From Nitrospina sp. (GTDB lineage Bacteria; Nitrospinota; Nitrospinia; Nitrospinales; JACRGP01), in contig JACAVV010000034.1 of the NCBI GenBank assembly GCA_024648695.1, positions 1 to 54,320 of the forward strand: a stretch of 54,320 nucleotides of DNA, given 5' to 3'. Made by a program: the position numbers and the translations under genes. Shown one piece after another: positions 37,538-38,116 of the stretch. The notes below the pieces were generated by a model. The model did not search any database and had not been told where the DNA came from. It saw only the letters and a program-made list of their open reading frames with translations. Numbering within the stretch: position 1 is the stretch's first letter; each line of letters starts with the position of its first letter.

Positions 37538-37711
37538 ATGTACGAAGTAAAGGTATTCGATGGATCAGGAAACTTGAAGCAGGTTATTTCAGTTCGAAAA
37601 CTGAATCTTCGATCACAAAAACAACTGGAAAACCCGGGTTTTTTCAGAAAAAACAAAAAAGCCGCAGGTCGGATCAAAAATTCGGCTACCTGCGTAAGCA
37701 ATGAAGTTTGA
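37538..37711 (+). CDS. Small basic protein of unknown function
   Basis: 57 residues from the ATG at 37538. The longer frame from 37502 is rejected because GAGG sits at good spacing before this ATG and the sequence becomes protein-like only from MYEVKVFDGSGNLKQVISV. The second half is strongly basic (FFRKNKKAAGRIK) and there is one cysteine. It precedes rpsU by 200 bases and follows the structured leader. The N-terminal pattern looks conserved in style, but I cannot name a family. Confidence 0.6.
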   Translation: MYEVKVFDGSGNLKQVISVRKLNLRSQKQLENPGFFRKNKKAAGRIKNSATCVSNEV

Positions 37712-37765
37712 AGGAATCCCGGTAATCACAGGTGCAACAGAAAACCTTTAAAAAGGGTTTTAAAA

Positions 37766-37841: not shown

Positions 37842-37891
37842 GTTCCCTGAGGTAAAACCTTTGTTTATTCAAGGGTTTCATTACCAGGGAC
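37842..37891 (+). promoter_or_regulatory. rpsU leader hairpin
   Basis: Imperfect long stem: 37842-37861 pairs with 37871-37891, about 17 pairs including CCCTG with CAGGG, GTAA with TTAC and AACC with GGTT, with a loop near 37862-37870. Its 3' foot ends about 12 bases before the GAGG ribosome site of rpsU. It could be an autoregulatory site for S21 or a translation-control structure. Confidence 0.45.
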
Positions 37892-37912
37892 TCTCTTGAT
37901 TATGAGGTACTT

Positions 37913-38116
37913 ATTTCTTACGTCATCGTTTATCAAAATCAAGTAGAACAGGCATTAAAGCAATTAAAACGCAAGCTCAATAAAGAAGGTTTTTTCAAGG
38001 ATCTTAAACGCCGGAAGTTTTTCATGAAACCTTCAGTTAAAAAAAAATTAAAAATAAAAGAAGCCAAGAAAAAACGCAAAGCGGCAAAAGTACGAATGAA
38101 ATCTGCCTGGCATTAA
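37913..38116 (+). CDS. rpsU: Ribosomal protein S21, apparent ATT start
   Basis: Small-subunit ribosomal protein at the 3' end region of 16S rRNA, helping initiation. The 67-residue product has the S21 pattern: VIVYQNQVEQALKQLKRKL, then EGFFKDLKRRKFFMKPS, then a lysine-rich tail. The open frame begins after a TAA at 37853 and contains no ATG, GTG, TTG or CTG before the conserved region. An ATT at 37913 is placed exactly where S21 should begin and has GAGG five bases upstream. Either the gene uses an AUU start, as infC does in enterics, or one base differs from the true genome. The first in-frame ATG is 37 codons in, too late. Confidence 0.8.
   Translation: MSYVIVYQNQVEQALKQLKRKLNKEGFFKDLKRRKFFMKPSVKKKLKIKEAKKKRKAAKVRMKSAWH

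Follow-up and report, generated by a model that had tools for sequence, protein, structure and literature searches.

A probable AUU start codon on rpsU-B, a second bS21 gene of Nitrospinota

Introduction

How is translation initiated on a ribosomal protein gene whose reading frame offers no canonical start codon? The question is raised by a gene for S21 (bS21), a protein that acts in translation initiation, in the window, by which we mean the whole stretch of 54,320 nt analysed here (Nitrospina sp., contig JACAVV010000034.1 of assembly GCA_024648695.1, forward strand). To our knowledge, bacterial AUU starts are known from very few genes. One of them is infC, which in E. coli begins with AUU and is autoregulated by IF3, and whose start in Streptomyces is ATC. 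The literature that we searched, with most subscription papers outside its scope, contained no published AUU start on rpsU.

Results

The S21 frame and its start site

The open S21 frame spans positions 37856-38116 on the forward strand, between an in-frame TAA read from the sequence at 37853-37855 and the terminal TAA at 38114-38116. Beyond the upstream stop it reads NLCLFKGFITRDSLDYEVLISYVIVYQNQVEQALK... and contains no ATG, GTG, TTG or CTG until the S21 core is reached; its earliest in-frame methionine is internal (FFMKPS). At the expected first position stands ATT (37913-37915), separated by five nucleotides (TACTT) from the Shine-Dalgarno (SD) core GAGG (TATGAGGTACTT, 37904-37907), where relatives carry GGAGGTCTT or GGGGGTCTT. 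Both the missing canonical start and the ATT with GAGG five bases upstream had been described in the initial annotation, and both are confirmed on the sequence.

Read from this ATT, the gene (37913-38116) encodes 67 residues plus a stop codon. The protein scores 61.1 bits against PF01165 (Pfam Ribosomal_S21, cut-off 27) and 51.4 bits against TIGR00030 (NCBIfam, cut-off 28.95), which places it in the bS21 family. A run of 20 upstream codons lacking a canonical start is unremarkable alone; what is remarkable is such a lack in a conserved and selected gene, and since it is common to 16 of 30 orthologous copies it is not due to chance. The ATG at 37902 was rejected as a start, lying in another frame than S21 and not being conserved. 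No known RNA element was matched in an Rfam scan of the window, and the single-sequence fold of the 108-nt start region has a z of -2.2.

A divergent second bS21 paralogue

The genome from which the window derives has two rpsU genes. The window copy, which we name rpsU-B, is the divergent paralogue and thus not the sole rpsU, while the canonical type, rpsU-A, lies on another contig (C8) and begins TTG-GAA-GTT. UUG is the rpsU-A start in all 55 Nitrospinales copies (for example L001 and L021-L032) and ATG in none of them; in the outer family f9, unlike in Nitrospinales, rpsU-A starts with ATG. The rpsU-A SD is very strong throughout Nitrospinales (median -12.0 kcal/mol), and the one in the window's own genome (-13.7 kcal/mol) is the strongest among the genes examined, above 33 control genes.

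rpsU-B shares 65-80% identity with the B copies of relatives, and a conserved C-terminal Trp is found in 29 of 30 copies. Its distribution is patchy (26 of the 69 genomes with any S21), and it is therefore not essential. The named relatives in the public genome set are nearly all MAGs of Nitrospinota or Nitrospina; the exceptions are a Nitrospirae-labelled entry and a more distant S21 from Maribacter. Relatives of the window's genome belong to a single order, which we take to be Nitrospinales. A phage origin of the paralogue was considered and rejected, as S21 proteins in viral contigs are merely 38-42% identical.

Start codons of rpsU-B across the phylum

S21 genes were located in 77 Nitrospinota genomes and fetched, and their starts were read, with codon positions in rpsU-B counted from the VEQAL core. 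This survey yielded 30 rpsU-B copies in 26 genomes. Relatives with ATG at the codon corresponding to 37913 had been named in the initial annotation as evidence that would speak against the AUU; ATG is the start in none of the 30 copies, though it is one substitution away from ATT, and the comparison thus supports the AUU start.

No plausible canonical start is present in 16 copies, from 16 genomes, 10 genera and 4 families. Immediately after the SD (typically GGAGGTCTTATT), their codon -10 reads ATT (14) or ATC (2), and no other near-cognate codon is shared by all 16. Its first two bases are invariant (A 16/16, T 16/16) and its third nearly so (T 14/16), whereas each position of codon -9 varies without constraint; rpsU-B of this group thus falls into the class of conserved non-canonical starts, defined by the lack of ATG, GTG and TTG and by a conserved near-cognate codon behind an SD. 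In L010, L014 and L110 an in-frame stop lies a few codons upstream, and the ATT at -10 is the sole near-cognate codon; as an exception, L020 has one in-frame TTG 18 codons upstream of its ATT, without an SD. The other 14 copies carry TTG at codon -9, one codon after -10, and their codon -10 is ATT (7), ATA (2), GTT, GTC, ACT, TTT or AAT. This either/or pattern of AUU/AUC at -10 versus TTG at -9 (Fisher p = 0.0017, kinship ignored) is the one expected if translation begins at -10. About five changes, few of them supported, account for the TTG state on the B tree, and the pattern is not phylogenetically independent. The deepest split of this tree has AUU copies in both of its branches, which suggests that AUU is old in rpsU-B.

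A sequencing or assembly error hiding a true ATG could be suspected, because the draft genome that contains the window is split into 56 contigs. However, 16 separate genomes agree in having ATT or ATC at this codon, among them a single-contig assembly (G010/L009) and a record titled chromosome (L035), and with no ATG among the 30 B copies we give such an error next to no probability. Taken together, the sequence comparisons indicate that the AUU at 37913 is very probably the genuine start of rpsU-B.

Selection on rpsU-B

Could rpsU-B instead be a decaying pseudogene, which lost its UUG start and is not translated? It is a patchy second copy, 14 copies have UUG at -9 and the main rpsU also has UUG, and a decayed extra copy with two stops is known (G032:C187). 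However, the median pN/pS of the AUU/AUC group (0.165, with synonymous sites near saturation among its 16 copies) matches that of the UUG group (0.159). The AUU copies are thus as constrained as the UUG copies, under purifying selection with a pN/pS of about 0.17. Moreover, their frames are complete, the AUU is conserved as an island, and the position of AUU copies on either side of the deepest split also counts against decay, so that we regard this explanation as highly unlikely.

The upstream small ORF

A small open reading frame (uORF) with an ATG start, encoding a conserved 57-residue protein (MYEVKVFDGSGNLKQVISVRKLN...), lies at 37538-37711 on the forward strand; of the 30 rpsU-B copies, 24 have such a uORF in front of them. 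Its product (MYEVKVFDGSGNLK...) belongs to a multi-copy Nitrospinales-specific family. Within the phylum this family was detected in 63 of the 64 Nitrospinales genomes, with up to 8 matches per genome, but not in the 13 others; the protein has no match in Pfam or NCBIfam. The decayed extra uORF/rpsU-B pair, with its two in-frame stops, is located at G032:C187:2112-2397. In most relatives the uORF stop is 13-31 nt upstream of the AUU, with the SD within the spacer, and translational coupling from the uORF to rpsU-B is possible there. In the window this distance is 201 nt, and the spacer contains a near-perfect inverted repeat (AAAACCTTTAAAAAGGGTTTT, 37742-37765).

The short spacer of the relatives, as well as the out-of-frame ATG at 37902, would also fit a fusion protein, made by frameshift or read-through from the uORF or by entry at that ATG. 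However, rpsU-B stands in frame 0, 1 or 2 relative to the uORF in different genomes, the uORF is missing from several copies, and the ATG at 37902 is absent from relatives; a fusion is extremely improbable.

Strength of the SD

SD energies were calculated on the assumption of the standard 16S tail; the tail itself was not recovered from the window's own genome with RF00177 or from seven relatives by pattern. SD-like motifs are common in Nitrospinales. The median SD pairing is -9.8 kcal/mol in the AUU/AUC group versus -6.9 kcal/mol in the UUG group (p = 0.004, kinship ignored), and the SD of the window's rpsU-B is of average strength (-7.0 kcal/mol). Thus the strong SD of relatives and their possible coupling to the uORF are both less marked at the window locus.

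infC and control genes

As a control we took 33 translation-region genes from one ribosomal-protein region of the same genome and judged their starts by eye, guided by known N-termini. Every one of them has a canonical start: ATG in 28, GTG in 2 and TTG in 3. The infC gene of Nitrospinota (L119-L148), with starts assigned from the conserved N-terminus KKQRIN plus an SD, begins right behind the SD with AUU in 25 of 30 genes and with AUA in 5 of 30, including that of the window's genome (L127). In the window's family infC appears to start with AUA, in most other Nitrospinota with AUU. Several infC genes have a stop codon immediately upstream of the AUU or AUA, and infC is likely misannotated by standard gene callers. 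Initiation at AUU or AUA in these organisms is thus independently indicated by infC, and the analogy with IF3 autoregulation drawn in the initial annotation is strengthened.

Discussion

The explanation that we favour as a whole, and hold to be probable, is that rpsU-B is a functional second bS21 gene whose translation starts at the AUU behind an SD, with the AUU as a putative throttle. The ribosome would read this AUU with initiator Met-tRNA, and IF3 would discriminate against it as it does for infC, which would make the AUU a deliberate throttle. Under normal proof-reading by IF3 the output of bS21-B would be low, while relaxed initiation, due to low IF3 or to 30S subunits lacking bS21, would permit more of it; the dosage of bS21-B would then be coupled to the state of the 30S pool. 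The best reading of the start is that it is kept weak by selection. For the more specific proposal that the AUU is an IF3-sensitive throttle, we judge the chances to be about even, and a closed feedback loop of bS21 or IF3 on rpsU-B, though plausible, is rather unlikely. A similar loop had been suggested in the initial annotation; it is weakened by the fact that the window gene is the second paralogue and not the main S21 gene, and by its average SD.

In the main rival to the throttle, expression is simply set at a constant low level, as has been suggested for pcnB: the AUU would be an inefficient constitutive start, or one coupled to the uORF, with no regulatory response. The E. coli pcnB AUU start is described as inefficient (Binns and Masters 2002, as cited in PMC13009471), AUU on S. 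aureus cvfC1 cuts yield with no effect of the medium (PMC13009471), and the uORF stop of most relatives, at 13-31 nt with the SD inside the spacer, would suit coupling. However, the window uORF at 201 nt is too far for simple coupling, and the link to initiation factors is suggestive, as the rare kind of start recurs in infC of these genomes and S21 acts in initiation. We consider this rival to be a real contender, albeit of lower probability than the explanation favoured above, taken as a whole.

Comparison of the sequences shows that both rpsU genes have conserved, weak starts other than AUG, namely UUG on rpsU-A and AUU/AUC or UUG on rpsU-B. A broader proposal, which we put forward tentatively and think rather unlikely, is that selection in Nitrospinales holds both bS21 genes off AUG, such that S21 synthesis reports the fidelity of 30S initiation. 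Subunits short of bS21 or IF3 would initiate at the weak rpsU codons and thereby restore bS21. If true, this would be a ribosomal-protein feedback that operates through start-codon discrimination and not through mRNA structure.

The locus matters because a poor start is kept across an order on the gene of a protein that acts in initiation, in genomes where infC has a start of the same rare type. This makes testable the hypothesis that start-codon discrimination regulates ribosome composition. Furthermore, gene callers limited to ATG, GTG and TTG would miss or truncate rpsU-B.

Several known systems resemble the one proposed here. In Flavobacterium johnsoniae, loss of bS21 or of its C-terminus improves initiation by the ribosomes on rpsU mRNA, and complex formation by subunits without the bS21 C-terminus is independent of IF3 (PMC9976891). 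The likeness lies in the unusual initiation signals of rpsU, since Nitrospinales rpsU-A has a very strong SD; the difference is that SD strength is what matters in F. johnsoniae, which belongs to a phylum with ribosomes that disregard most SDs (PMC9976891). The Flavobacterium type is marked by an rpsU SD below about -13 kcal/mol, a value that the genome's own rpsU-A reaches (-13.7) but neither the window rpsU-B (-7.0) nor the median of the AUU group (-9.8) does, and by a bS21 Tyr54 contacting the 16S tail (residue number from PMC9976891), at which both Nitrospinota paralogues have Lys.

Other genes, too, have conserved starts of a non-canonical kind by which yield is limited or regulated: they are found on pcnB, on cvfC1 (AUU) and ccpN (AUA) of S. 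aureus, where together with extended SDs they lower yield (PMC13009471), and on Streptomyces sigR, which starts with GTC (PMC5472188). None of these genes encodes a ribosomal protein, and none is known as an order-wide start-codon trait in a bS21 paralogue. Francisella likewise has more than one rpsU gene per genome and possibly specialised ribosomes (PMC9578407); its rpsU genes are not known to us to have a peculiar start codon, and functional data exist for them, whereas our case is built from sequence.

A further comparison is with infC, whose AUU autoregulates, IF3 repressing starts other than ATG, GTG and TTG (PMC5472188). rpsU-B differs from infC in encoding the ribosomal protein bS21 and in that its IF3 sensitivity is putative, and it resembles infC in being a gene of the initiation machinery with an AUU behind an SD.
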